Shown: in pieces, positions 39,784 to 53,787 of the stretch
Numbering within the stretch: position 1 is the first letter of the stretch
How the letters are laid out: each line of letters begins with the position of its first letter
Origin: Desulfobacteraceae bacterium
GTDB taxonomy: Bacteria; Desulfobacterota; Desulfobacteria; Desulfobacterales; Desulfosarcinaceae
NCBI GenBank assembly: GCA_003599575.1
Contig: QZKV01000065.1
Location: 1-64,000 of the forward strand
Length of the DNA: 64,000 nt
Direction of reading: 5' to 3'
Translations under genes and position numbers: made by a program
The notes under the pieces: model-generated
What the model was told of the DNA's origin: nothing
Databases searched by the model: none
Seen by the model: only the letters and a program-made list of their open reading frames with translations

Positions 39784-40290
39784 TTATTGATCAATAAGCA
39801 AATACCCGTCTTCATCGCGTTCGACTTTGGTGATGCCGGGGTACTTTCGTTCCAGTTGTTTCAAAATGGTATCCCGGCTGACGATCTTGCGCAGCAAGCG
39901 GTCGCGTTCATGCACCAGATCCAGCGATTCCAGGGCCCTTCGCAAAGTGATCCGTAAATCATCATCATTCCAGGGCTTGAGGATGAATTTGTAAACCCCG
40001 GCCTCATTAATCGCCTGAATGGCCACATCCATTTCCGCCTGTCCGGTCAGCATGATGGAAAGCATATGCGGATAGGCCTCCTTGACCTGTTGGAGAAATT
40101 CCAGTCCATTGACATAGGGCATGTTGTAATCGGATATCACGATGCTGACGTCCCGCGCGGAAAGCAGTTTGAGCCCTTCCTCGGCATCCCGGGCCGTCAG
40201 CGTGGCATACGGTTCCTTGCGCAAGGCGCGTTCCAGCGCACTGAGCACATTTTTTTCATCATCGACGATAAGAACGGCATGGGATGGCAT
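39784..40290 (-). CDS. Response regulator, receiver domain with short C-terminal helix
   Basis: 168 residues from the ATG at 40290 (AAAGGA 9 bases upstream). Receiver domain 3-120 with acidic pocket VDDEKNV, phospho-acceptor in VISDYNMPYVNG, LTGQAEMDVAI and the RpfG-type NEAGVYKFILKPWNDDDLR. After a linker helix there is only a 30-residue tail, ending DEDGYLLIDQ, so it has no output domain and may shuttle phosphate or bind a partner. Last gene of the eight-gene signalling operon, 91 bp after the receiver-ATPase gene. Confidence 0.88.
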   Translation of the reverse strand: MPSHAVLIVDDEKNVLSALERALRKEPYATLTARDAEEGLKLLSARDVSIVISDYNMPYVNGLEFLQQVKEAYPHMLSIMLTGQAEMDVAIQAINEAGVYKFILKPWNDDDLRITLRRALESLDLVHERDRLLRKIVSRDTILKQLERKYPGITKVERDEDGYLLIDQ

Positions 40291-40381
40291 AAATATTTCC
40301 TTTCCAAACGGGCAAACGTTACCGCCTGAAGCGGGAGCTGTGTAAAAATGCCGAAAGCGGCTCCGAAAACATCTCCTTGTC

Positions 40382-42817
40382 TCACTGCAAACCGCCGACT
40401 GGCGGGTCGGTTTGCTCTGCAAGACTGCGACCGCAACTTGGACAATGGCCCCAATCTTTGGCCAGCAACTGGTGGCATCGGCCGCAAGTCCGCACGATCT
40501 CTTTGCCGCAATAGGGACAAAATGGATAGCGCTGTTCCATTAAGGCACTGCAATGCGGGCAGGTGATTTCAAGAGTGTTTTGCGGACCGAACACGCGCAG
40601 CACTTCTTCGCAACTGGTTAAACCTCCTTTAATTTTAGCCACGGCATCATCCAGCAGCGTGGTCATGCCGGTCAGTTGGGCTGCATGCAGCAGTTCCGGT
40701 TCCGTGGCATCCCGGTGGATCATACGTTTGACCTCCGCATCCACCTGGAAAATTTCATATACACCGATTCTTCCTTTATACCCCGTTTTGTTGCATTTGC
40801 TGCAGCCCGCGCCCTTATAAAAGGTAAAATCAGGCGAGACGATCTTCAGGGCGCCGAGCATATCGCGGTCCGGCAAATCCTCCACGCGGCAATGCGGACA
40901 AATGCGGCGTACCAGGCGCTGGGCCACCACACCCATCAGCGCATCGGCGATAACGAAAGAGGCCAAACCCATGTCGCGCAGGCGGGTGATGGAGGCGATG
41001 CTGGAGTTGGTGTGCAGCGTACTCAGCACCAGGTGCCCGGTCAGGGCCGCGTGAAAGGCTACTTCGGCGGTTTCGCGGTCGCGGATTTCGCCCAGCATAA
41101 TCACGTTGGGATCCTGCCGCAGAATCGAGCGCAGCACGTTGGAGAAAGAGAGGCCAATTTTTTCGCGGATATTCACCTGCTCGGCCATGGACATGAAATA
41201 TTCGACCGGATCTTCGATGGTGGTGAAGTTCTTGGTGACCTTGGCCCCCTTGCGCAGCAGACCGTACAAGGTGGTTGTTTTGCCGCTGCCGGTGGGACCT
41301 GTGGTCAGTATCAGGCCCTGCGGCCGTTCAATGAATTTGGAGATGATGGAGAGATCCCTGTCCGAAAAGCCCAGTTCTTCAATCTGCTTGCTGGCGGCGT
41401 TTTTGTCCAGGATCCTGAGCACGATCTTTTCGCCGTTGATCGTGGGCAGGGTGGAGATGCGCATATCCACCATGCGCGTGGAGGTTTTGACGGTGATGCG
41501 GCCGTCCTGGGGGCGCCGTCGTTCGGCGATATCCAGTTCGCTCATGACCTTGATCCGCGACACCATGGCCATATGCATGTTCAAGGGAATGTGCAGTTTG
41601 TCCACCAGCAGATCGTCGATGCGGTAGCGAACCATGATGTATTTGGTTTTGGGTTCGATATGCACATCGGAAGCCCCGTGTCGCAGCGCATCGGAGATGA
41701 TGGCATTGACGATCCGGATGGCCGGCGGCCTGTCTTTGGCCCGCAGGAGTTCTTCAAGGTCGGTAACCTCATCTTCCTGTTCCAAGACAATCTCGATCTG
41801 CTCGGTCGGATCCGACACTTCGAACTCGGACAGGGCGGAGGCCAGGCTTTCTCCGTCGTGGGGGTAAATTTCCTTTATCTTTTCCAGGATCTCACTGGGG
41901 GTGGCGACCAACGGCAGTATGGGCATGCCCACGATGAAGGTCAGATCATCGATTTTGGGATAGTCGGTCGGATCGGCCATGGCCACCATGAGCTTCTGAT
42001 CGCTGCGCTTGAGCGGCACCAGGAGATTCTTTTCGCAGATTTCCTGCGGTATCAGGGCGGCCAATGCTTCGGAAACTTCGAATTCGGCGGGATAAACGCG
42101 TTTGGTGTTGGTTCTGTGCTGAATCAGATCGACGATGATCTTCTCGCCGACCGCTTCGATCTGAATCAAAATTTTGGGAAGGACCTGGTTCGTCTTGGCC
42201 TGAATTGAAAGCGCCTTGTCCAGATGCGACTGCTGGATCAGATTGTCCGTGAGCAGCAGTTTGCCCAATTGGCTGCGATGGGTATTGATGAACCGACTCA
42301 ACCTTTTGATATCGTTTTTTTGGTGCGCGTTTTTTTTCCTCAGCGAACTGTTTTCGTTGATCAGATCATATTGCTCCAAGGCCAGACCCACGGTCAGCCG
42401 CAGGTCGTGATCGTTCCAGGGCTTGGTGATAAACTTGTAAACGGCGCCCTCGTTAACCGCCCCCATGACGGCATCCACATCGGCATAGCCTGTCAACATG
42501 ATCCGGATGGTTTGCGGGTATTTGGTCTTAATCTGCTTTAACAACTCCGCACCGGTCGTACCGGGCATGCGGTGGTCCGAAATCACCACCTGCACGGGCT
42601 GTTCGCATTCAAGCACGGCCAGGGCCTCCGTTGCGGATTCGGCCGTAAACAGCTCGTAATTTTCCTGCCGGAAGATCCGCCGCATGGACTTAAGGACATT
42701 GGCCTCATCATCGACAAACAGGATCTTGTAGGTCTTGGGCGGATCGCTTTTATCGGGCGGCGGTCCGGCCGGTTTGGAAGAATCATCATTGAGGAAAAGT
42801 GAAGCCAGTCTGGACAT
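40382..42817 (-). CDS. Receiver domain fused to GspE/PilB-type secretion ATPase with C-terminal double zinc ribbon
   Basis: 811 residues from the ATG at 42817; an ATG at 42853 is an alternative. Order: receiver 31-145 (phospho-site D81 in VVISDHRMPG, KPWND 133-137); linker helix; MshEN/T2SSE-N-type domain about 183-315; ATPase 360-735 with Walker A GPTGSGKTT (507-515), Asp box IEDPVEYF, Walker B NVIMLGEIRD, His box GHLVLSTLHTN and the tetracysteine C640/C643/C672/C675 typical of GspE and PilB; then a ribbon pair with CxxC at 753/756, 767/770, 778/781, 792/795. All catalytic elements look intact. The architecture suggests phosphorylation-controlled power for a type IV pilus or type II secretion machine. 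Adjacent kinases are likely phosphodonors. Confidence 0.93.
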   Translation of the reverse strand: MSRLASLFLNDDSSKPAGPPPDKSDPPKTYKILFVDDEANVLKSMRRIFRQENYELFTAESATEALAVLECEQPVQVVISDHRMPGTTGAELLKQIKTKYPQTIRIMLTGYADVDAVMGAVNEGAVYKFITKPWNDHDLRLTVGLALEQYDLINENSSLRKKNAHQKNDIKRLSRFINTHRSQLGKLLLTDNLIQQSHLDKALSIQAKTNQVLPKILIQIEAVGEKIIVDLIQHRTNTKRVYPAEFEVSEALAALIPQEICEKNLLVPLKRSDQKLMVAMADPTDYPKIDDLTFIVGMPILPLVATPSEILEKIKEIYPHDGESLASALSEFEVSDPTEQIEIVLEQEDEVTDLEELLRAKDRPPAIRIVNAIISDALRHGASDVHIEPKTKYIMVRYRIDDLLVDKLHIPLNMHMAMVSRIKVMSELDIAERRRPQDGRITVKTSTRMVDMRISTLPTINGEKIVLRILDKNAASKQIEELGFSDRDLSIISKFIERPQGLILTTGPTGSGKTTTLYGLLRKGAKVTKNFTTIEDPVEYFMSMAEQVNIREKIGLSFSNVLRSILRQDPNVIMLGEIRDRETAEVAFHAALTGHLVLSTLHTNSSIASITRLRDMGLASFVIADALMGVVAQRLVRRICPHCRVEDLPDRDMLGALKIVSPDFTFYKGAGCSKCNKTGYKGRIGVYEIFQVDAEVKRMIHRDATEPELLHAAQLTGMTTLLDDAVAKIKGGLTSCEEVLRVFGPQNTLEITCPHCSALMEQRYPFCPYCGKEIVRTCGRCHQLLAKDWGHCPSCGRSLAEQTDPPVGGLQ

Positions 42818-42863
42818 CGATTTACCTGTCCGGCCGTGCCGGTTTACCGGCATCGGGCCATTA

Positions 42864-44249
42864 TCAAGCGTTTTGCACCGGCAGGCTGACGATCATCACG
42901 GTGCCTCGGCCAACAGTGCTTTCCACTGAAATGCGGCCGTGATGCGTTTGGACAATATTGTAGGCCAGGTTGAGCCCCAAACCGGTTCCCTGGCCCACCT
43001 CGCGGGTGGTGAAAAACGGCTCGAAAAGCCTGGCGCGATGGTCCGGCCGGATGCCCGGCCCGCTGTCGCTGATACGGATGTCAATCATTTCTTGGACTGC
43101 ACGGGTCATGATGCCGATATCCCCCTTCTCGCCGACGGCCTGCAGTGCGTTGAGCAGGATCTGGAAAAAAACCTGGCTAAGCTCTCTGGGACGGCCGACC
43201 ACGGCGGGCAGCGGACAGTAATCCTTGATAATCCTGACCCCGGGCTTGATTTGACTTTTCAGGACGGCCAGCGCATTGTCCAGGCAGGCATTGATATCCA
43301 CGCATTCCTTGGCTTCCACGCCGGGATGGGAAAAATCCCTCAGGTTCTGGACAATGGCCTGGATCCGGCGGGCACCTTCCAGCGATTCATCGATCAGCTG
43401 CCCGGTGTCTTCGAGAACAAAATCGATATCCATTGTTGTCCTCACCTGATCTATGGCGGCCATCCCCTGGCGCAAGAGGACGGCCGAATGCTTTGGATCG
43501 GCCGGGTCACCGAGCAGCCCCAACAATCCTTGGTATTGGCGGATCAAATCGGCCAAGGCCGAAGAGGAGTGCTTCAAAGTGTTCAGGTTGCTGATGACGA
43601 AGCCGATTGGATTGTTGATCTCATGCGCCATACCGGCTGCGAGTTGGCCGATCGAGGCCAGTTTTTCCTGCTGCAGCATCCTCAATTGAGCTTCCTGGAT
43701 GTCACGGGTTTTGCGTTCGACCTCCTGTTCGAGATTTTCGGCCAGCCGGCGGTATTTTTCCTCCGATACCTGAAGCCGGGCGGCCCTGTCTTTCAACTGA
43801 TTGTAGGATTCCGTCACCACCTGGACATGCAGCCCGGCGGTCATCTTGTTCTGATAGGTGATGAATATTATTCTGTTGAGCGCATTGGCCATGAACCTGC
43901 CCATTGGCAAAAGGCAGTGCGCATCGCAATGCCGCGGCGGCTGAAAGCAAAGATATCCGATCTGATCCAGCTCGTGCAGCAGGGGGAAAAAGAACGCGTT
44001 TGCCTCGCCGGCGTTCACCATTATGAAGTTGCGGGGCTCCTTGCGAAGCATTTGCATGGCTTCATCGACCGATTCAGGCAAAACGGCCCCCCCGGCATAG
44101 TGAACTTCTCCGGCGGGCGAAAGAATACAAACCGGGAGCCAGGCCGCAATCTCTTCCATCAGCCCGGCAATCATCGATTCCGGAAGCAGATCGGAAAGAC
44201 CGTATTCACGATCGAACTGCTCTGCGGGGATATACTCTTCTTCTTCCAT
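42864..44249 (-). CDS. Soluble histidine kinase
   Basis: 461 residues without membrane helices, so cytosolic. N-terminal 140 residues form an unrecognised, possibly GAF-like sensor with several cysteines (PPRHCDAHC). A coiled coil (150-195) leads to the HisKA box GQLAAGMAHEINNPIGF with H209, followed by HATPase motifs (QVFFQILLNALQAVGE, DSGPGIRPDHRARLFEPFF, GTGLGLNLAYNIV). The kinase core is close to that of the larger kinase at 48.1-50.2 kb, pointing to a duplication. It is 35 bp after the GTPase gene and 46 bp before the receiver-ATPase gene. Confidence 0.92.
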   Translation of the reverse strand: MEEEEYIPAEQFDREYGLSDLLPESMIAGLMEEIAAWLPVCILSPAGEVHYAGGAVLPESVDEAMQMLRKEPRNFIMVNAGEANAFFFPLLHELDQIGYLCFQPPRHCDAHCLLPMGRFMANALNRIIFITYQNKMTAGLHVQVVTESYNQLKDRAARLQVSEEKYRRLAENLEQEVERKTRDIQEAQLRMLQQEKLASIGQLAAGMAHEINNPIGFVISNLNTLKHSSSALADLIRQYQGLLGLLGDPADPKHSAVLLRQGMAAIDQVRTTMDIDFVLEDTGQLIDESLEGARRIQAIVQNLRDFSHPGVEAKECVDINACLDNALAVLKSQIKPGVRIIKDYCPLPAVVGRPRELSQVFFQILLNALQAVGEKGDIGIMTRAVQEMIDIRISDSGPGIRPDHRARLFEPFFTTREVGQGTGLGLNLAYNIVQTHHGRISVESTVGRGTVMIVSLPVQNA

Positions 44250-44284
44250 AGCGCTTGCATCCTGAATAGGTTAACCCAACCAAC

Positions 44285-44926
44285 TCAACACAACACCTGC
44301 ATGAAATGCGCTGGTTCGAGCCCGTACGTTTCGCGCAACCGATGCCGTTCATCCAGGCAGCGATAGGTTTCGGAAAGCAGGCGCTGGAAGGTTTCCCGCA
44401 CGCCCCGGCCTTGTAATGCGGCGCCGAATGTAATGGGAAGCCCGCTGGGGGACCAGCGGTTCAGAATCTCCTGCTCGGCGACGATATCGGGCAGGTCGCG
44501 CTTGTTGAATTGAACCACCAGCGGCATGTGATCGAAATCGAGTCCCACCCGGTTGGCATTTTTTTCCAAGTTGTCGAAGCTTTCAAAATTGCTCACCGCC
44601 TGGGTGCTCTGCGAGTCGGCCACGAACACGACCCCATCGGCTCTTGAAAGTACGGCTTTACGGGTGGCATCATGGGCCACCTGGCCGGGCACGGTGAAGA
44701 GTTTGAACTTCAGCGTGAATCCGCTGTCCAGCCGCACTGCCAGCGGCAGCAAATCAAAAAACAGCGTCCGGTCTCCTTTGGTTTCAAGACTCATCAGCTC
44801 GCCACACTGACGGCCGGCCAGAAAATCGTGCAGCCGCATCAGATTGGTGGTCTTGCCGCTCAAGGCGGGTCCATAATAGACGAGCTTGATGACGATTTTC
44901 TTACCCTCTTGATTGAACTCGACCAT
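44285..44926 (-). CDS. MglA-like small Ras-type GTPase
   Basis: 213 residues. P-loop GPALSGKTTN (19-28), switch region with LETKGDRTLFFDLLPL, the MglA-specific TVPGQ in place of DxxGQ, and NKRDLPD for guanine specificity. The family includes MglA of Myxococcus, which sets cell polarity and controls type IV pili and gliding; many uncharacterised relatives sit in signalling operons. No MglB (roadblock) partner gene is present nearby. Start has AGGAATACGCC upstream. It lies between response regulator and kinase genes. Confidence 0.9.
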   Translation of the reverse strand: MVEFNQEGKKIVIKLVYYGPALSGKTTNLMRLHDFLAGRQCGELMSLETKGDRTLFFDLLPLAVRLDSGFTLKFKLFTVPGQVAHDATRKAVLSRADGVVFVADSQSTQAVSNFESFDNLEKNANRVGLDFDHMPLVVQFNKRDLPDIVAEQEILNRWSPSGLPITFGAALQGRGVRETFQRLLSETYRCLDERHRLRETYGLEPAHFMQVLC

Positions 44927-44983
44927 GGCGTATTCCTGGTCCGTGGTTGTACTCTGCGGACCGGTTTGCCTCCGACCGGTGCA

Positions 44984-45814
44984 TCAGCCTGCTTGAGGCA
45001 GCATCGTGATGATGACGCCGCTGTTGCTGAACCGGCCGGTCAGCGGAATCAACTGCAGATGGTACGCTTGAGCGCTGCGTTTGCCTTGAACGCGTATCTG
45101 CCGTTTTTCCAAAGAAGTAATGGTTTGTTGAAGTTCGTCCGCACTCAATCCGTCGAAGTATTCAATGATCGAGCTTCCGAAGTCGATCGTCTGCTCCGCG
45201 TGGAATTGCTTCTGAGCCGCCCGGTTGGCGAAAACAATCATCATTTCGGAACTGACGCCCACGATGGGCGAAGGCAGGTCTTCCAGCATGGCTTGGGAAA
45301 GCTGCAGGGCCCGATTTTGCATTTCCAGCACCTGGGTGCGCTCCTCCACAATGCTTTCCAGCTTTTCATTGATCGCTTTTAATTCTTCATTGGTCTGAAG
45401 CGCCATTTCATAAAGCCGCTTGTTGTCCTGAATCAGGTCATACTGCTCCAAGGCCTGGCGGATTTCCAAAGTCAGATGCTGATCGTTCCACGGCTTGAGG
45501 AAGAACTTATAGATATGCCCCTCGTTGATGGAGTTGGTGATCGTGTCGACATCCGTATAGCCGGTGAGGATGATGCGCAGGATATGCGGATAGAGCACCT
45601 TGATCTGGCTGAATAACTCCGTGCCGTTCATTTCGGGCATGCGCTGATCGGAGATGACCACATGGACGTCGTTTTCAGCCAAAACGGTCAAGGCTTCCTG
45701 CCCGCTGGTGCAGGTCAGCAGTCGATAAGCTTCTTTGCGCAAGAGGCGTTTTAAGGCATTTAAAATATTTTTCTCATCATCGACGCACAGCACTGTATGT
45801 GTGAGAGCCTGCAT
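44984..45814 (-). CDS. Response regulator with C-terminal PAS-like domain
   Basis: 276 residues. Receiver 5-122 with VDDEKNI, D56 in VISDQRMPEMNG, LTGYTDVDTI and FFLKPWNDQHL. A coiled coil (about 135-175, ELKAINEKLESIVEERTQVL) connects to a PAS-like domain (175-270) reading LPSPIVGVSSEMMIVFANRA and ending HLQLIPLTGRFSNSGVIITM. No catalytic output. AAAGGA precedes the ATG. It follows the HDOD gene by 4 bp. Confidence 0.88.
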   Translation of the reverse strand: MQALTHTVLCVDDEKNILNALKRLLRKEAYRLLTCTSGQEALTVLAENDVHVVISDQRMPEMNGTELFSQIKVLYPHILRIILTGYTDVDTITNSINEGHIYKFFLKPWNDQHLTLEIRQALEQYDLIQDNKRLYEMALQTNEELKAINEKLESIVEERTQVLEMQNRALQLSQAMLEDLPSPIVGVSSEMMIVFANRAAQKQFHAEQTIDFGSSIIEYFDGLSADELQQTITSLEKRQIRVQGKRSAQAYHLQLIPLTGRFSNSGVIITMLPQAG

Positions 45815-45818
45815 ATGC

Positions 45819-46673
45819 CTATCCTTTATTCAAGAACGACCATACTGCATCTACTTCTTTTTTAACCTCCGAGTACCAGTTGACCCCGCTTTTCAGAGCC
45901 TCCGCTATTACCGCGCGTATTACTTCGGGCTTGCGATCCAACTGGAGCTGATAGCCTTTTTCTCCGTTCATCATATGCGCCAGATTGTTGGCGGTGTTCA
46001 CAACCACCACCAGAGACGAGCGGGAGGCCTGCTCGGAGGCGCTGTGATGGTATTGAATCGCCTGGTTCAGAGTTTCCGGCAGCATCCATTGCTGGGCCAG
46101 ATAGGCACCGATCAGGTTGTGCGGACAACTGCACAATTTGAGTTCGGCATCGTAAAAAGCCAGACCGTCCTGTCCGGCGGCCCGCAAAATAGCGATCAAC
46201 TCCGCGGGAAAAAAATCGGCCAGCACGACCTTGCCGATATCGTGCAGCAGACCGGCCGTGAAGGCATCCTCCGGCAAAGCCAAGCGGGTCTTGACCCCCA
46301 GATAGCGGCTCAATACGGCCACTTGGATGGCATGCTTCCAGAAAGCCTCGATTTTGAATTCGGGCAGCTCTTTTTTCAGCGCCAGCGTATCGATCACCGT
46401 CACAGTAATGACCGCATTGCGTACGGTATTGTACCCCAGCAAGGTGACGGCATGCCCTACACTTTTGACCTTGCTTTTGAAGCCGTAAAAGGAAGAGTTC
46501 ACCAGCCGCAGTATTTTCAACACCAGGCTCTGATCCTTGGACAGCAGGTCGACCAACTGCTCCAGAGGCGAATCGAAATCCTGAAGCAGCCGGTTGACTT
46601 CCAGCGCAATGATCGGAAGGGTGGGCAGATTGTTGATGGAACGCATTTTTTTTAGAACTTGGTCACGATTCAT
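45819..46673 (-). CDS. HDOD-domain signalling protein
   Basis: 284 residues consisting mainly of one HDOD domain: INNLPTLPIIALEVNRLLQD at the start, LSKDQSLVLKILRLVNSSFY, SVGHAVTLLGYNTVRNAV, then the degenerate HD site AGLLHDIGKVVLADFFP and YHHSASEQAS. HDOD proteins are regulators without proven enzyme activity in most cases; here the HD pair (HDIGK) is retained. Its ATG overlaps the end of the HD-GYP gene by 4 bp (ATGA), so the two are translationally coupled. Confidence 0.9.
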   Translation of the reverse strand: MNRDQVLKKMRSINNLPTLPIIALEVNRLLQDFDSPLEQLVDLLSKDQSLVLKILRLVNSSFYGFKSKVKSVGHAVTLLGYNTVRNAVITVTVIDTLALKKELPEFKIEAFWKHAIQVAVLSRYLGVKTRLALPEDAFTAGLLHDIGKVVLADFFPAELIAILRAAGQDGLAFYDAELKLCSCPHNLIGAYLAQQWMLPETLNQAIQYHHSASEQASRSSLVVVVNTANNLAHMMNGEKGYQLQLDRKPEVIRAVIAEALKSGVNWYSEVKKEVDAVWSFLNKG

Positions 46674-48073
46674 GCGACCTCCCCAGTATCGATCGCATGG
46701 GGATTGGGTTCGGAAACTTCAATCGTGCCTTTGAGCAGTTCACGTTCTCCCATGCTTCGGATGCTCTGCACGCAACGTTCGTTGAGCAAGGTCCCCCGGC
46801 CCAGCAGCAAGCGCCCGTTGTCGAGTCTCAAATCCTGCATCAGCAGCATGCCTTCCTTGAGCGCTTGTACCGGAAGACGCATCACCTCCTGGTGCGGGCG
46901 TTGGCCTGCCAATCTTTTCAAAAGAAGGTTGGCCATGGCGAGATCGTAGCGCTGTTGAATGCCGGCTTCGATGATCCGCTCCGCCACCACCTTGCGCAGG
47001 GCCTCGTCATTGACGTCCAGTGCGGCGATGCTCGCCGCGTCCAGGTAGCGGCGCGCCTGGGCGAGAAAACGCTGAACGTTTTGCGGCCATAAATGAATGA
47101 TCTTCTGATAATCCGCGGCCAAGGCGAGTATTTTAGCCCCGATCGGCATCCCCTCGGCCCTCAGTCCGCGTGGAAAACCGCTGCCGTCGACGTTTTCATG
47201 ATGTGCGAGCACGATTTCGCCAACTTCCTTGAGCCGCTCTACCGAGGAGAGCGAGACGAAGGCGATCGTGGGGTGCTGGCGAAACGTTTCCATCTCCTCA
47301 GCCGTCATGACCTTGGGGTCTTTTTCAATAAAACTCTCGGCCATGCCCAGCAGACCGATATCGTGCACCAACCCGGCCATTTCTATTTTATTACCTTCGG
47401 ATTCATCCAGTTCGGCATCGTTGGCCAGTGCGCGCGCCAGGCGGGCGACGGCCTGCGTATAGCGGCCCAATTTCGGGTTGCTGGATTCCACCAGCGCCAG
47501 CAGCAAACGGATGGTATCCATCAGGCTTTTTTCAAGCCCCTGGTTTGCGGCTTGTAGAATTTTATTCTGGTACTGCAGCGCCCATGTGCGTTTCGAGACG
47601 GTCTCTTCCAGGGTTTTGTTGAGCTCCATGAGTTGGGCGTTCTGCCGCTCGGTCAACTCGCTCAGCCTTATGTTCTCAAGGCGCAGTTCCACCTGAGACA
47701 GGGCCGAACGCACCTGCGCGAGGATATCCTCATCATTCCAGGGTTTGGAGATATAGCGGTGAATCCTGCCCTTGTTGACCGCGTCGACCACGGCATCCAG
47801 ATCCGCATAGCCGGTCAGCACGAATCGCATGGCATTCGGCGAAAGGACGCGGGCCTTCTCGAGAAACTCGGCGCCATTCATCTTCGGCATGCGCTGGTCG
47901 GAAATGATCAGGGAGACGGACTCGGCGGCCTGAGCAAGTTTTTCCAAAGCCTCGTGGCCGCTTCCGGCCGTAATGATCGTATACGGTTCTTTGCGAAAAA
48001 GCCGCGACAAAGACTTGAGGATCGAGGCCTCATCATCAACCAGCAGCAAGGTGTGAGGGTGTTTTAATTCCAT
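46670..48073 (-). CDS. Response regulator with HD-GYP-like phosphodiesterase domain
   Basis: About 467 residues from the ATG at 48073; a TTG at 48088 is an alternative start. Receiver with D59 (LIISDQRMPKMNG) and HRYISKPWNDEDI, a coiled coil, then an HD domain (GLVHDIGLLGM) and HHENVDGSGFPRG. The canonical HD-GYP sequence is HHExxDGxGYP; here tyrosine is phenylalanine and the protein carries about 110 extra residues after the domain, so cyclic-di-GMP hydrolysis is likely but not certain. Preceded by the large kinase gene (gap 33 bp). Confidence 0.88.
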   Translation of the reverse strand: MELKHPHTLLLVDDEASILKSLSRLFRKEPYTIITAGSGHEALEKLAQAAESVSLIISDQRMPKMNGAEFLEKARVLSPNAMRFVLTGYADLDAVVDAVNKGRIHRYISKPWNDEDILAQVRSALSQVELRLENIRLSELTERQNAQLMELNKTLEETVSKRTWALQYQNKILQAANQGLEKSLMDTIRLLLALVESSNPKLGRYTQAVARLARALANDAELDESEGNKIEMAGLVHDIGLLGMAESFIEKDPKVMTAEEMETFRQHPTIAFVSLSSVERLKEVGEIVLAHHENVDGSGFPRGLRAEGMPIGAKILALAADYQKIIHLWPQNVQRFLAQARRYLDAASIAALDVNDEALRKVVAERIIEAGIQQRYDLAMANLLLKRLAGQRPHQEVMRLPVQALKEGMLLMQDLRLDNGRLLLGRGTLLNERCVQSIRSMGERELLKGTIEVSEPNPHAIDTGEVA

Positions 48074-48106
48074 GATCTGTTGAAGCAATTCCCCCCGGTC
48101 TCATCT

Positions 48107-50212
48107 TCAGGCGTCCTCATGCGCTTCATCCTGAATTTGATCCACGGGTAAACGGATGGTAAATTGTGTTCCTTGGCCGACTTGGCTTTGTACTTTGATA
48201 TCGCCGCCATGTTTTTTGATGATATTGTAGGCGATATTCATTCCCAGACCGGTGCCTTTGCCGACCTCCTTGGTGGTGAAGAACGGCTCGAATATCCGTT
48301 GCAGATGATGATCGGGAATACCGCATCCCGTATCACTGATGTGGATCTGGACACAATCATCCAGGTGTTGGGTCTTGATGCGGATTTCGCCTCTGCTTTC
48401 GATGGCTTGCGCGGCATTGACCAGGATGTTGGCAAAGACCTGATTCAGCTGCTGGGGATTGGCCGATATGATCGGCAGCTCGCCGAACTCCTTTATGACC
48501 ACCGCTTTGTATTTCAACTCGTTGTTGACAATATTCAGGGTAGAATTCAGTCCCTTGTTGATATCCGTATCCTGCACCTTGTCCTGGCCGGGATGGGCGA
48601 AATACTTCATATCTTCGACAATTCTTTTGATGCGCTCGGTGCCTTCCATGCTTTCCGCGAGCAATTCTTTCAGATCGTTGCGCACGTAGTCGATATCGAT
48701 TTCATCCTCCAGCGATTCGATATCGCCGATCACCCGCCCCACATCGGCGCAGCCGCTAACGGCCGGCAGCTCTTTTACAGCCTGCCTGAGCTTTTGATAC
48801 GCCTCGATGAGTCTGTTGAGGTCTTTTTGATAATCGTCCAGAGTTTTCAGGTTGCTGCTCACAAATCCGGTGGGATTGTTGATCTCATGGGCCACGCCCG
48901 CCGCAAGCTGACCGATGGAGGCCATTTTCTGGGATTGCATCAGCTCCCGCTCCATGTTGAGCTTGCCGGTAATATCCTCAAGCATCATAATGGCGCCGGC
49001 GACATTTCCGTTGCGGTCGTAAAGGGGTGAGGTCACGACGCGGAAATCGCACCATCGATCGGGGCGATAGAGTTTGGTCGTTGTTTCCTGGCACCTGCGG
49101 GAACGCATGGCCTCCATGGTTGGACAGAATTCGCACGGGCCGCTCCTGGCGGGAGAGTGAAATATTTCGTAACACCTGGGAGATCGTTCGATCGGAGTTT
49201 GGGGAAACCACGCGTTCATCTGGCGGTTCATCTCCAGCAGCTTTAAGTCCGGATCGATGAGCACCACGCCGATATTGATGTTGTCGATGAGACGGCGGAT
49301 CTTCTCTTCCGAGGCCTGCAGGGCCGCCTCGCTGCGCTTGCGCTCGGTGATATCCATGATGATGCCGACGATACCGGCGGGTTGGCCCATCGCATCCTTA
49401 TAGAACGCCTTGGTGATAACAACATCGTGATCGATCCGATCGGCACCCCGGATCTGTGCATCATAGGATATCTTGGCCTCTCGCTGCAAAAGCGCCGCGT
49501 CGGTTTGTTTGGCCGTTTGAATGATTTCAGCCGAAGCGAGCGCGGTAAGATTGCGGCCGATGAGTTGCTTTTTCTCAAGTTTTATGAATTGAGCGAAAGC
49601 ATCGTTGCACCCCAGAAAAAAACCTTCCAGATCCCTGTAGAAAACCGGATGGGGGATGGCATCAAGCAAGGTTTGCAGAAGCAATACCTGCTCATGCAGG
49701 ATCGTATGGGAAACGTTGAGCTCGGAGCGCACCTTGCCGACTTCATAGGTGACTTGCTTGAGATGGCTTGTTTTTTCGAACACCTCTCTTTCCAGCCGGC
49801 GGCGCGACTCAGCCTCGCGCATTTCAAACGCTTGCCGACGCAACGCGTTGTCCACCGTAATCAGCACCTGCTGGCGATCGAAAGGTTTGAGAATATAACC
49901 GTAAAGCCCGATATCGAGTGCGGCCTTGGCCGATTCGGGGTCGGAGATGACAGTCACCAGCACGATACCGGTTTGGGGATAGTCCCTTTTGATGAACCGG
50001 GACAGATCGATCCCGGACTCGCCCGGCATTTGAATGTCGGACAAGACCAAATGCATGCTGTGGCCTGAGAGCTGTTCGCGAGCCTGCTCGGCATTTTCGG
50101 CCATGAACAGCCTGTACGACGGTTCGCTTCGCAGAATGTGCATGAGCAGCTCACGGACATCCGGATCATCGTCCACCAGCAGGATGTTTTTTACAGGACC
50201 GGCCTGTCCCAT
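48107..50212 (-). CDS. Hybrid: receiver - PAS - PAS - histidine kinase
   Basis: 701 residues, soluble. Receiver 7-125 (D59 in LVLSDIQMPGESG), coiled coil to 180, PAS 1 about 180-293 (LLDAIPHPVFYRDLEGFFLG, ending IMDITERKR), PAS 2 about 300-415 with a cysteine cluster (C347, C360, C363, C374) that might bind metal or sense redox, HisKA GQLAAGVAHEINNPTGF with H442, and HATPase (VFANILVNAAQAIE, ISDTGCGIPDHHLQ, GTGLGMNIAYNII). The receiver at the N-terminus makes it a target as well as a source of phosphate. AAGGGGAACT precedes the ATG. First gene of the operon. Confidence 0.92.
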   Translation of the reverse strand: MGQAGPVKNILLVDDDPDVRELLMHILRSEPSYRLFMAENAEQAREQLSGHSMHLVLSDIQMPGESGIDLSRFIKRDYPQTGIVLVTVISDPESAKAALDIGLYGYILKPFDRQQVLITVDNALRRQAFEMREAESRRRLEREVFEKTSHLKQVTYEVGKVRSELNVSHTILHEQVLLLQTLLDAIPHPVFYRDLEGFFLGCNDAFAQFIKLEKKQLIGRNLTALASAEIIQTAKQTDAALLQREAKISYDAQIRGADRIDHDVVITKAFYKDAMGQPAGIVGIIMDITERKRSEAALQASEEKIRRLIDNINIGVVLIDPDLKLLEMNRQMNAWFPQTPIERSPRCYEIFHSPARSGPCEFCPTMEAMRSRRCQETTTKLYRPDRWCDFRVVTSPLYDRNGNVAGAIMMLEDITGKLNMERELMQSQKMASIGQLAAGVAHEINNPTGFVSSNLKTLDDYQKDLNRLIEAYQKLRQAVKELPAVSGCADVGRVIGDIESLEDEIDIDYVRNDLKELLAESMEGTERIKRIVEDMKYFAHPGQDKVQDTDINKGLNSTLNIVNNELKYKAVVIKEFGELPIISANPQQLNQVFANILVNAAQAIESRGEIRIKTQHLDDCVQIHISDTGCGIPDHHLQRIFEPFFTTKEVGKGTGLGMNIAYNIIKKHGGDIKVQSQVGQGTQFTIRLPVDQIQDEAHEDA

Positions 50213-50503: not shown

Positions 50504-51298
50504 CTATCGGGGAGTAGTTAAGGATTCCTGTTTCAGGGGATCGTTTTGTTTGAATAGAATATCTTGGAGCCAGTTGACACCGAATTTGAGCAGCGCCACA
50601 TCATCGCTTCTCAGTTGGTGCCGAACGGCCTCATCCACCGGCATGCGTTTCAGGAAGCTGCTTTCGAATACAAACTGCCGGAAGTGGTCGATATTGTAAC
50701 TCAGCATGAAAAACATCTGCCTGGCCTTTGCGGTCAATTGAATGCTGGGCGGAAAGGAGCGCTTGCGCACCACCAGATCGGTCCATTCGGCATTGACCTG
50801 ATCGCGCAAATCGACTTGCTGGTCCTGGCGCCATTCGGCAACCGTCCATTCGCGGTTTTCCTCGACACCTTTACAGTGCGGTTCATGGATGAAGAAAAAG
50901 AATCCGTCATCGTCGGCGCCTTCCTTATGCTGCAGCGAGGCGACCCCCAGAGGATAATAACGACAGGCCGTGGGGCGATCCGAATAAACGAGGCAGCCTT
51001 CATCCCGCACAAAGGGGCATGAAGATTGTTCGTCATCCATTGCCTTGAGCGTCACCATGGGCAAACCGGTTTTTTCCAGAAGATGGGGTTCGGTATAGAT
51101 GGCCAGAAATTGGTCCGACGGCAACTCCAGCCGCTTTTTCAGGCGGATCACATCAAACGGTGTGAGAATGATTTTAATCCCCCGACAACACTGGGTAAAG
51201 CAGGAAACATCGGGGTGGCATCTGAATTGAAAGCGACTGTTATAACCAAGTCTAGTCGGTTCGATACGAGCGCCGGTTTGCGGGTTGGCAGCCTTCAT
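50504..51298 (-). CDS. YkgJ-family cysteine cluster protein
   Basis: 264 residues. The family's cysteine pattern is present: RCHPDVSCFTQCCRG near the N-terminus, then SSCPFVRDEGCLVYSDRPTA C RYYPLG and EPHCKG. It probably binds a metal or Fe-S centre; some homologues have been suggested to act in metal handling or maturation, but the function is unsettled. AAGGATA precedes the ATG. It is followed by a strong terminator and so is likely monocistronic. Confidence 0.88.
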   Translation of the reverse strand: MKAANPQTGARIEPTRLGYNSRFQFRCHPDVSCFTQCCRGIKIILTPFDVIRLKKRLELPSDQFLAIYTEPHLLEKTGLPMVTLKAMDDEQSSCPFVRDEGCLVYSDRPTACRYYPLGVASLQHKEGADDDGFFFFIHEPHCKGVEENREWTVAEWRQDQQVDLRDQVNAEWTDLVVRKRSFPPSIQLTAKARQMFFMLSYNIDHFRQFVFESSFLKRMPVDEAVRHQLRSDDVALLKFGVNWLQDILFKQNDPLKQESLTTPR

Positions 51299-51749: not shown

Positions 51750-53600
51750 TTACATGTGCCCGGCCTGTATCCAGAGATGGATCAGAATACTGGCGATATA
51801 ACCCGCCAGAATCGCGGGCGTCCATTTCAGATGGGCGCCGAAAGTGTACTTGCCCCTGGCGGTGCCCATCAATGCGACGCCGGCGGCCGAACCGATCGAC
51901 AGCAAGCTCCCGCCCACCCCGGCGGTCAAGGTCACCAGCAGCCATTGGGCATGGGACATTTCGGGGGACATGGTCAACACCGCGAACATCACCGGGATAT
52001 TGTCCACGATGGCCGACAACACGCCCACCAGGACATTGGCCATGGTGGCTCCCAGATCGAGGTACATCAAATTGGAAATGGCGGCCAGATAACCGAATTG
52101 GGACAATCCGCCCACGCAAAGAATGACACCGTAGAAAAAGAGCAGGGTATCCCACTCGGCTTGGGCAATGCGTTTCATGATATCAAAATGGGCCGCGGAC
52201 TTTTTCTGGGATGTAAAATCCTGGAGCACTTCCACGGCGCCGATCACCCTGCCGGCGCGGTCTTTAAGGGGCAGAGCCGAAAAAGTGACCCACTTGCCCG
52301 ATTCACCCAGGTTGGGGAAAAAGCCGCTGGAGTCATAAGTGTCTTCTGCGTGGGGGTTCTTGCGGTAGCCTTGTTTATAATGCTCAGCGATGACTTCTTC
52401 GGGCTGGTAATCGATGATCAGATCGGCCATGGAGGGCCGCCTGCTGGGGTAGAAGGGTTTCCACTGGTTGCGCGTCCCGATCATCTCCTTGGCAGGGATG
52501 CCGGTCAGCTCTTCACAGGCTTTGTTCCAGTGGGTGATGACATGGTTTTTGTCTATGGCGAAAGTGGGTTCGGGAATATGGTCGATGACTGCGTCCAGGC
52601 TTCTTTTGCGCTCGAGCAGACGCTTGAGCGGCGTATAGCACAAATCGCTCTGGGCGCCCAGTATGCCGTCATAAGATTCGCTGCGGCCTTCATGGCGCTT
52701 GATATAATAGGAAAAGGCGCCCAAATAACCCATGCCCAGCATCATGCCGGCCGCGGGCGGCAAGTGTAAGAAGTTGTGAAATGACACGGCGGTGACGATG
52801 GTCAGCAAAAAAAGGCCGATGATCACGAAACCGCCGAATTTCACCAGCACTTTTTCATCCACCTTCTTGGGTTGGCCATTTCCGATGGCCAGGCTCATCA
52901 AAACCGCCGGCACCAGCCAATTGACCACCGATGGAATGAAGAGCGCGAAAAATTCAGAAAACTGGACCTTGCCTTTTTGCCAGACCATCAGGGTGGTGAT
53001 ATCGCCGAAAGGTGAAAAGGCCCCGCCCGCATTGGCCGCGACCACAACGTTGATGCAGGCCAGGGCCACGAACTTGATATTGTCGCCGGCCACCGCCATC
53101 ACCACGGCGCCCATGAGCAGGGCCGTGGTGAGGTTGTCCGCCACGGGCGAAATGAAGAAGGCCAGCACCCCGGTTACCCAGAAAATCAGTCGCAGGGAAA
53201 AGCCCCGGGTGACCAGCCAGGCCCGCAGAGACTGGAACACGTTACGCTCTTCCATAGAGTTGATGTAGGTCATGGCGGCCAGCAAAAAAAGGAAAAGTTC
53301 GGCATATTCGAGCAAATTGCTTTTTATGGCTTCATGAGCGCTGTGCGTGTCGCCGATTTGCTTATAAGCAACCGCCAGCAGGATCCAAATGATGCCTGCA
53401 GCTATCAGTACCGGTTTGCTCTTGCGCAGGTGGATCTTGTTTTCCATCGGCACCAGGGTGTAAGCCGCTATAAATAACAAAACCCCCAAATAGCCGTAAA
53501 TGGTATTGGTCATGTCTGCCGGCGCGGCGCCATGCCCCCCCTGCGCCAAGGCAATTGCCGGCATCAATGCGATCCCCAATATCATTCCAAGTTGTTTCAT
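51750..53600 (-). CDS. nhaD: NhaD-type Na+/H+ antiporter with inserted PAS domain
   Basis: 616 residues from the ATG at 53600 (GGGAAGGG upstream). A signal-like first helix is followed by the NhaD membrane core: EYAELFLFLLAAMTYINSME, FFISPVADNLTTALLMGAV, NAGGAFSPFGDITTLMVWQKG, and after the insert AEWDTLLFFYGVILCVGGL and SAIVDNIPVMFAVL. Between residues about 304 and 470, in the cytoplasmic loop that normally joins YYIKRHE to FDIMKRIAQAEWD, sits a full PAS domain (VIDHIPEPTFAIDKNHVITH to GAVEVLQDFTSQKK). All antiporter motifs are intact. Sensing by the PAS domain may gate transport. Confidence 0.92.
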   Translation of the reverse strand: MKQLGMILGIALMPAIALAQGGHGAAPADMTNTIYGYLGVLLFIAAYTLVPMENKIHLRKSKPVLIAAGIIWILLAVAYKQIGDTHSAHEAIKSNLLEYAELFLFLLAAMTYINSMEERNVFQSLRAWLVTRGFSLRLIFWVTGVLAFFISPVADNLTTALLMGAVVMAVAGDNIKFVALACINVVVAANAGGAFSPFGDITTLMVWQKGKVQFSEFFALFIPSVVNWLVPAVLMSLAIGNGQPKKVDEKVLVKFGGFVIIGLFLLTIVTAVSFHNFLHLPPAAGMMLGMGYLGAFSYYIKRHEGRSESYDGILGAQSDLCYTPLKRLLERKRSLDAVIDHIPEPTFAIDKNHVITHWNKACEELTGIPAKEMIGTRNQWKPFYPSRRPSMADLIIDYQPEEVIAEHYKQGYRKNPHAEDTYDSSGFFPNLGESGKWVTFSALPLKDRAGRVIGAVEVLQDFTSQKKSAAHFDIMKRIAQAEWDTLLFFYGVILCVGGLSQFGYLAAISNLMYLDLGATMANVLVGVLSAIVDNIPVMFAVLTMSPEMSHAQWLLVTLTAGVGGSLLSIGSAAGVALMGTARGKYTFGAHLKWTPAILAGYIASILIHLWIQAGHM

Positions 53601-53787
53601 TGCATTTCCCTTCCCTGATCCGTACAGATTCATGCCAGGAGAATGTCCGCGGACTTCACGAGGCTGGTACCGAATTCACCCTGCTTGTAAAAAGAGGTCA
53701 ACCTATTTGCAAAAATGAATCGGGTCAATAAAAAAATGGGAGCCCGATAGTGAAGTGCATCCAGCGTCCTTGGTGCGGGCATTTAAA

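Follow-up and report, generated by a model that had tools for sequence, protein, structure and literature searches.

Contig QZKV01000065.1 of a Desulfobacteraceae bacterium carries, in the 64,000-nucleotide stretch analysed here (the window), a cluster of eight signalling genes in which an MglA-type small GTPase (P0005), a histidine kinase (P0006, here called HKb) and a PilB/GspE-type ATPase with a fused receiver domain (P0007, here called REC-PilB) lie side by side. The constant unit is these three genes, MglA-kinase-REC-PilB; the HDOD, REC-HD and REC-PAS genes and the second kinase gene are frequent companions. We suggest, with a probability of roughly 0.55, that the cluster encodes a self-contained system for controlling a second, dedicated motor of type IV pilus extension, gated by phosphorylation and by a GTPase that works independently of MglB.

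The eight-gene cluster

All eight genes lie on the minus strand, from 50212 down to 39784, with gaps in transcription order of 33, -4, 4, 57, 35, 46 and 91 bp; these figures use ATG starts, at 42817 for P0007 (favoured by homologue alignments), 48073 for P0002 and 40290 for P0008. Re-measurement reproduced exactly the eight same-strand genes and the seven gaps given in a first-pass annotation of this DNA. The Pfam order is REC-PAS-PAS-HisKA-HATPase, REC-HD_5, HDOD, REC-PAS, small GTPase, HisKA-HATPase, REC-MshEN-T2SSE-double zinc ribbon, and REC, and the features are as follows.

48107..50212, minus: P0001, hybrid kinase REC-PAS-PAS-HisKA-HATPase, 701 amino acids (aa), without hydrophobic segment; accessory (Pfam, hydropathy scan)
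46670..48073, minus: P0002, REC-HD_5 response regulator of the NosR family, HD-GYP-like with altered positions, alternative TTG start at 48088; accessory (Pfam, NF053512)
45819..46673, minus: P0003, HDOD protein, 284 aa, HDIGK kept; accessory (Pfam)
44984..45814, minus: P0004, REC-PAS response regulator, 276 aa; accessory (Pfam)
44285..44926, minus: P0005, MglA-type small GTPase, 213 aa; core (Pfam, PDB relatives, conserved residues)
42864..44249, minus: P0006, histidine kinase HKb, 461 aa, without hydrophobic segment; core (Pfam, hydropathy scan)
43836..44204, minus: P0006 residues 16-138, N-terminal domain with predicted roadblock/GAF-like fold (AlphaFold2 and structure comparison)
40382..42817, minus: P0007, receiver-fused PilB/GspE-type ATPase (REC-PilB), 811 aa from the favoured ATG, 823 aa from 42853; core (Pfam, NCBI profiles, tree)
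42395..42724, minus: P0007 receiver domain (Pfam)
42113..42271, minus: P0007 residues 195-247, degenerate region aligned with both MshEN cyclic di-GMP (c-di-GMP) motifs (alignment; motif definition from PMC5013675)
41852..42091, minus: P0007 residues 255-334, Pfam MshEN match just downstream of the motif region (Pfam)
40595..41740, minus: P0007 T2SSE ATPase domain, motor motifs intact (Pfam)
40430..40561, minus: P0007 C-terminal double zinc ribbon (Pfam)
39784..40290, minus: P0008, lone receiver protein with KPWND end, alternative TTG start at 40422 (Pfam)

Recurrence of the three-gene unit

In a first survey of 60 genomes, including the window's own, 56 had one or more MglA matches, for the most part copies of about 40% identity, and seven others held a close orthologue of the GTPase at 61-74% identity; in all seven the surrounding gene set is present, though reordered and in part lost or cut off by contig ends. 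Named genomes, scanned with aligned GTPases, gave 577 confirmed stretches, of which the best 80 were kept. Forty-six of these 80 loci make up the nearest group, one clade with 52-70% GTPase identity; they are titled Desulfobacterota or Deltaproteobacteria, Beta- and Gammaproteobacteria, plus one Acidobacteriota (locus L078 of genome G072, Polarisedimenticolaceae), which we count as beta/gamma-type and whose genes group with the beta/gamma copies. Carriers of the module include Janthinobacterium sp. CG3 and Marinobacter sp. X15-166B. By tblastn, 44 of the 46 core loci have a kinase core no more than 2.5 kb downstream of the GTPase, and the remaining two also have a kinase gene called. Beyond the kinase, 39 loci show the PilB ATPase core, five show a receiver or an incomplete PilB before the contig runs out, and in two the contig stops sooner. 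A receiver-PilB stands beside the GTPase in none of the 34 more distant MglA loci, four of which have less than 2.5 kb of downstream DNA. These distant loci come mostly from Myxococcota and other deltas (they are L098-L131) and have a kinase within 2.5 kb downstream, without PilB, in 18 cases; perhaps this is an older GTPase-kinase pairing.

Accessory genes are found at varying frequency: HD_5 in 32, HDOD in 28, REC-PAS in 33 and a further kinase core in 33 of the 46 core loci (among 21 full-length loci, HD_5 in 15, HDOD in 12 and REC-PAS in 14), while a receiver gene after PilB occurs in close relatives (L039-L042) and not in most other loci. The first-pass annotation had taken the eight genes for one self-contained operon, a view that would fall if they were rarely adjacent in relatives. 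This is not the case where an orthologue of the GTPase or the motor is present, and the set is supported as a conserved unit; what is constant is the central triad, whereas the other five genes vary between loci. The arrangement is more than chance, since it recurs in other families and classes. Clustering of 303 unassigned proteins from 48 loci gave no family in more than six loci, and a plasmid search with P0005 returned one match, of 44.5% identity, from Deinococcus ficus. Some core loci belong to genomes also counted in the genome surveys below (L057/G002, L056/G004, L053/G026 and L066/G046 among them), and loci and genomes are thus not additive; L044 and L066 are the same contig. In Desulfosarcina cetonica (L053, same contig as L040 of G026), REC-PilB reads in three pieces and HDOD was not called whole, by decay or assembly error.

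Co-occurrence and common descent

Across 291 genomes of the order, REC-PilB (E-value under 1e-150) was found in 25 and the GTPase (E-value under 1e-55) in 25, with both in 23 and on one contig in 22 of those 23 (Fisher p 1e-29 for co-occurrence, counting genomes as independent despite their relatedness); the module is patchy, being found in 25/291 genomes of the order. There are four exceptions: G014 carries, beside its REC-PilB, a piece of the GTPase cut by the contig end; in G280 the GTPase has the position it takes on the short contig L060, a contig that stops within REC-PilB; in G137, a genome 74% complete, the contig ends in the kinase; and G104, taken up below, has no GTPase match.

The class of Sulfuricella sp. 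T08 (G064) was represented by 274 genomes, six of them with REC-PilB, and all six carry the GTPase adjacent to it, near 60% identity; a seventh match (G498) is without receiver. With P0005 as query, no MglA match at E 0.001 was found in G498 or in 14 other checked genomes of that class. The ATPase of G498 (L197, G498:C48) is PilB-like and 42% identical to REC-PilB (437 bits), possibly a near receiver-less relative. A roadblock (PF03259) match is absent from 13 of the 14 beta/gamma-type module genomes, and in the window's own genome the single roadblock match over cut-off adjoins another MglA, not P0005. In the beta/gamma genomes, the module GTPase tends to be the one MglA of its kind present, without an MglB.

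The REC-PilB sequences (44 rows, two pairs identical) form one clade with a Shimodaira-Hasegawa-like approximate likelihood ratio test (SH-aLRT) support of 100, apart from the ATPases of the same genomes; this was a quick tree, with long-branch warnings, that included ten reference ATPases typed by NCBI cut-offs, PilB, GspE and TfpB among them. Several of the trees were quick ones, built without a mixture model. The GTPases likewise form a clade (47 rows, support 99). For the 37 loci with all three genes, the GTPase, HKb and PilB trees divide alike at their main split, with Desulfobacterota-type copies on one side and beta/gamma-type copies on the other; in all three, the beta/gamma side also takes in two delta-type loci (L074, L075). 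Tree distances correlate among the genes with r 0.86 to 0.94, not corrected for relatedness. The trees suggest joint movement or joint evolution of the module.

Receivers abound in the host genome (106 matches to P0007) and the accessory genes shuffle between loci, as would be expected of a loose pile-up of signalling genes without joint function; but the core triad is adjacent in separate lineages, co-occurs nearly one-to-one across genomes and has a common tree split, and we regard a pile-up as extremely improbable. It is already contradicted for the core, and is possible for P0008 and some of the accessory genes.

The receiver-fused motor

Forty-two copies of REC-PilB were aligned (from 38 of the 46 core loci, the window, L039, L043 and L045), and in all of them the receiver residues Asp48, Asp49, Asp93, Thr121 and Lys144 are invariant. 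PilT/VirB11-like motor ATPases (T2SSE) have as their hallmarks Walker A, the Asp box, Walker B, the His box and a tetracysteine. The Walker A Lys, Walker B, the catalytic Glu, the His-box residues and the four zinc cysteines are invariant in 42/42 copies, and the Asp-box Asp548 is found in 40/42; by its sequence, REC-PilB qualifies as such a motor. The cysteines of the C-terminal zinc ribbon are present in 16/42 copies and gapped in most others. One could imagine that REC-PilB no longer drives a filament and acts as an output switch, signalling the state of the motor or of its nucleotide to the other response regulators: no pilus gene was recognised nearby, and Myxococcus xanthus PilB has been reported in exopolysaccharide regulation (PMC5544727). 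The invariant motor residues are nonetheless as in a working motor, and we hold an output switch to be quite unlikely.

The MshEN receptor for c-di-GMP is defined by two RLGxx...LxxxLxxQ motifs, perfect conservation of which is possibly unnecessary for binding (PMC5013675). Of the 42 REC-PilB copies, motif I retains its Arg in 1, its first Gly in 16 and its final Gln in 39, and motif II retains them in 0, 0 and 1, respectively, so that the c-di-GMP motif is, as judged from the alignment, degenerate and largely lost. We infer that phosphorylation is the replacement input.

Another PilB-like ATPase of the same genome (G000:C103, L051:10704-13016), of 770 aa, has a GAF match in frame (C103:21458-21898); with its relatives in the ATPase tree, it may represent a second sensor-fused motor class.

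The MglA-type GTPase

The nearest solved relatives of P0005 are MglA of Myxococcus and Thermus (E 1e-43 to 1.5e-44). Group 1 MglA proteins, whose GTP hydrolysis is aided by an MglB dimer, are marked by their P-loop and NKxD motif. Their further traits are a TVPGQ G3 motif and an intrinsic Arg next to the G2 Thr (PMC4316618). All 47 GTPases of the clade have G24, K25, T26, R53, T78-Q82, N141, K142 and D144, and P0005 would by these sequence traits be placed in Group 1. Just after the G3 motif, Asp86, Ser94 and Arg95 are also present in 47/47, versus 4, 1 and 0 of 34 distant relatives. These residues lie in the switch II region, where small GTPases meet their partners, which makes a partner specific to the P0005 clade likely.

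The core kinase and its N-terminal domain

HKb was aligned from 40 of the 46 core loci, the gene being broken, cut or not found by tblastn in the other six. Its phospho-acceptor His209 is present in 41/41 copies, it begins with a conserved FDR stretch, and a simple hydropathy scan shows no hydrophobic segment. The N-terminal domain of the window copy has no Pfam match, and no Robl_LC7 match was found among 36 HKb members at E 1. An AlphaFold2 model of this domain, from 36 sequences, has a mean predicted local distance difference test score (pLDDT) of 89.4 and a predicted topology of helix, two strands, helix, three strands and a long last helix. Structure comparison (VIA-align on Foldseek's best thousand PDB chains) gave M. 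xanthus MglB 6hjm as top match, with Z 10.8, a root-mean-square deviation of 3.4 and 114 aligned residues, tied with the GAF domain 4g3k at Z 10.4; 33 of the 50 VIA-align rows, counted by hand, are of roadblock or Ragulator type. For the shorter beta/gamma HKb domain (pLDDT 92.7), GAF-type structures came first at Z 6.6, followed by Ragulator at 5.8 and MglB at 5.5, and Foldseek gave no match under 0.001. Alignment of the HKb domain by hhalign to 11 MglB-type proteins gave probabilities of 0.2 and 0.4%; since GAF (19 domains) and PAS (3 domains) controls score as low, at 0.1 to 1.1%, sequence comparison does not choose between folds.

We tentatively propose, with the odds against us, that HKb is a kinase that reads the GTPase: its N-terminal domain would be a hidden MglB-like roadblock domain that binds MglA-GTP and switches the kinase, the phosphate passing to the receiver of the motor. 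As free MglB is missing, a kinase with its own MglB-like domain is an attractive, if hypothetical, arrangement. The proposal is weakened by the lean of the beta/gamma model towards GAF, and the predicted fold is ambiguous between roadblock and GAF; single HKb members also have stray weak Pfam matches, one of the 36 to GAF_2 at E 0.03.

The GAF tie for the window domain and the GAF-type best match of the beta/gamma version would sit well with a placement role like that of SofG/MglA, in which the GTPase binds REC-PilB or a pole anchor and sets the position of the motor, while HKb, as an ordinary GAF/PAS-type sensor kinase, sets its activity independently. SofG is described as placing PilB and PilT in Myxococcus and as not being served by MglB (PMC4316618). 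The HKb gene, however, stands between the GTPase and motor genes nearly everywhere, and the 18 of 34 distant loci with a kinase after MglA and no PilB make the GTPase-kinase link look older than the motor; we find such a division of tasks doubtful. Any role at the pole, or in polarity, would be by analogy with Myxococcus.

Which filament the motor serves

All 14 beta/gamma-type module genomes have canonical PilB over cut-off, while GspE is over cut-off in 10; it is not in G413, G544, G067 and G069, drafts in which split genes or incompleteness are possible. The lack of GspE over cut-off in four module genomes argues, subject to draft quality, against the type II secretion system as the general target. 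The first-pass annotation had named a type IV pilus or type II secretion motor; the comparison of PilB (14/14) and GspE (10/14) narrows this toward pili and leaves secretion less favoured. That the motor serves type II secretion would agree with the similar scores against the GspE and PilB profiles (550 and 566 bits), with the ten genomes that do have GspE and with the name of the NCBI family nearest to both kinases, T2SS_HK, which both match below cut-off; set against the four genomes with PilB and no GspE over cut-off, we consider it unlikely. A dedicated pilus motor has a precedent in TfpB of Acinetobacter baylyi, a phylogenetically distinct second extension motor beside canonical PilB (PMC8213720), which makes an added extension motor reasonable.

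Several observations weigh against a dedicated pilus motor under this control. REC-PilB falls below the cut-offs of the PilB profile TIGR02538 (565.8 bits, cut-off 675.65), the GspE profile TIGR02533 (550.3, cut-off 630.25) and the TfpB profile NF053534 (446.9, cut-off 850). No pilin, PilC or stator gene was found in the cluster by Pfam, and no pilus part was recognised among recurrent neighbours, as judged by eye from sequence, without profiles. PilB is over cut-off in 191/274 genomes of the Sulfuricella class, and its presence in 14/14 is therefore weak as an association. G104 has REC-PilB and the kinase with no GTPase match, on a contig that ends inside REC-PilB, so that the GTPase may not be required. 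Weak binding of c-di-GMP by REC-PilB may also occur, given the motif I Gln in 39/42 copies. Finally, the host genome (6.45 Mb, 197 contigs, 98.7% complete) comes from a bin scored 6.9% contaminated.

A pair of genes in L044 resembling PilT/PilU is a T2SSE pair; it was set aside, as TetR, NUDIX and DUF6812-like genes separate it from REC-PilB and it was seen in a single lineage.

Companion genes and proposed mechanism

As had been noted in the first-pass annotation, four of the five receivers share a KPWND end, and both kinases have similar cores. The four receivers are 42-52% identical to one another, while the receiver of P0001, the fifth, has KPFDR at its end and shares 29-36% identity with the four; the kinase cores of P0001 and P0006 are 44% identical over 268 residues. 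In general, kinase-receiver specificity pairs alike kinases with alike receivers, and the likeness both of the kinase cores and of the four KPWND receivers makes it likely that phosphorylation is shared between P0001, HKb and these receivers. No Hpt domain was found in the cluster by Pfam, and two kinases with several receivers give no support to the term phosphorelay used earlier.

HD-GYP phosphodiesterases are marked by a metal-binding His/Asp set, a Lys after HDxG, and GYP. P0002 keeps HD, HH and Asp326, but Tyr210 stands in place of His, Leu246 in place of Lys and GFP in place of GYP; the 35 copies give a mixed picture, with His at the position of Tyr210 in 25 and Lys at that of Leu246 in 23. 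Phosphodiesterase activity is therefore doubtful in the window copy; with the MshEN motif of REC-PilB largely lost as well, the c-di-GMP hydrolysis step envisaged earlier is doubtful here. P0002 scores 414.2 bits against the NosR family NF053512, over its cut-off of 400. NosR, a response regulator, contains an HD-GYP domain and is phosphorylated by NosK (PMC12570481); the likeness to the NosP-NosK-NosR system lies in this score, and the cluster differs in that no FIST-type nitric oxide sensor is among its Pfam matches.

From the observed gene set, invariant residues, co-inheritance and separate clades, we infer a scheme of phosphotransfers, GTPase contact, localisation and pilus target. The receiver of REC-PilB would take its phosphate from the apparently soluble HKb, encoded just upstream, and probably from P0001 too, the hybrid kinase that resembles it; once phosphorylated, Asp93 would gate or dock the motor, replacing the c-di-GMP control that MshEN gives some other PilB proteins. 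Together with HKb and REC-PilB, the GTPase would serve as an on/off or place marker in the manner of SofG/MglA, without MglB, and its partner would most likely be the N-terminal domain of HKb. The REC-PAS, REC-HD and lone REC proteins, which have the same receiver type, may be competing phosphate acceptors or further outputs.

Flanking sequence

Promoter-like sites are at chance level (8 versus 6.7 expected); terminator-like sites number 23 versus 14.4 (standard deviation 4.5), spread over both strands, and neither kind fixes the operon limits. At 50504-51298 (minus strand), 291 bp upstream of the cluster, lies a gene for a CxxCxxCC zinc/iron-chelating protein, of which no copy was called in the module loci. 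At 51750-53633 (minus strand), an NhaD-type Na+/H+ antiporter match is split in two stretches with a PAS match between them (residues about 341-411); judged from these matches, this antiporter is a sensor-carrying transporter.

Relation to known systems and meaning

In Myxococcus, MglA with SgmX is reported to stimulate pilus formation (PMC7519303). The module resembles this Group 1 MglA/SofG control in the intrinsic Arg and Gln, the TVPGQ motif and the link to a pilus motor; it differs in that P0005 is in a clade of its own with Asp86, Ser94 and Arg95, in a cluster with a kinase and a receiver-PilB, and in the lack of a roadblock match in 13/14 beta/gamma-type genomes. REC-PilB is like TfpB in being an additional, distinct PilB-type ATPase alongside canonical PilB, whereas proteins over the TfpB cut-off (L134, L138) fall in another clade, and REC-PilB has a receiver and GTPase-kinase neighbours. 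With the motors MshE and PilB that are controlled through MshEN, it shares a PilB-type ATPase with an MshEN match, but its motif residues are mostly lost.

Conservons consist of four separate genes, CvnA-D, and include a histidine kinase-like protein, an MglA-family GTPase and a roadblock partner (PMC13343842, PMC4316618). Both systems combine, in one operon, a histidine kinase-like protein with an MglA-family GTPase. The roadblock protein and CvnC of conservons are encoded by separate genes, and no response regulator is described among them (PMC4316618); the module has several receivers, one of them fused to the motor, and a roadblock-like domain, if there is one, would belong to the kinase itself. 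No separate roadblock gene was found in the cluster by Pfam, which places it outside the conservon definition.

A 2014 census of prokaryotic small GTPases describes wide variation in the gene neighbourhoods of MglA Groups 1, 4 and 5 (PMC4316618), and in the main text of a 2024 review of PilB control, MglA is absent and a passage on REC concerns FimX (PMC11656802). In literature searches, we found no title or abstract opening describing an operon of receiver-PilB, MglA and kinase. The parts are from known families, and their combination resembles MglA/SofG control, conservons and TfpB while falling under the full definition of none; the module suggests an undescribed way of controlling type IV pili.

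The route by which Ras-like GTPases and two-component phosphorylation act on the type IV pilus motor is a matter of ongoing work. Here the GTPase, the kinase and the motor stand together in one cluster across Desulfobacterota, Beta- and Gammaproteobacteria, and the link is therefore testable with three purified proteins. If the proposal for HKb is true, it would give a complete pathway from small GTPase through two-component system to motor, in which a GTPase-activating protein or effector is fused to the kinase and free MglB is dispensed with. The module may account for the MglA genes in beta/gamma genomes that are without MglB, and PilB, MshE and TfpB would be joined by a further class of extension motor.

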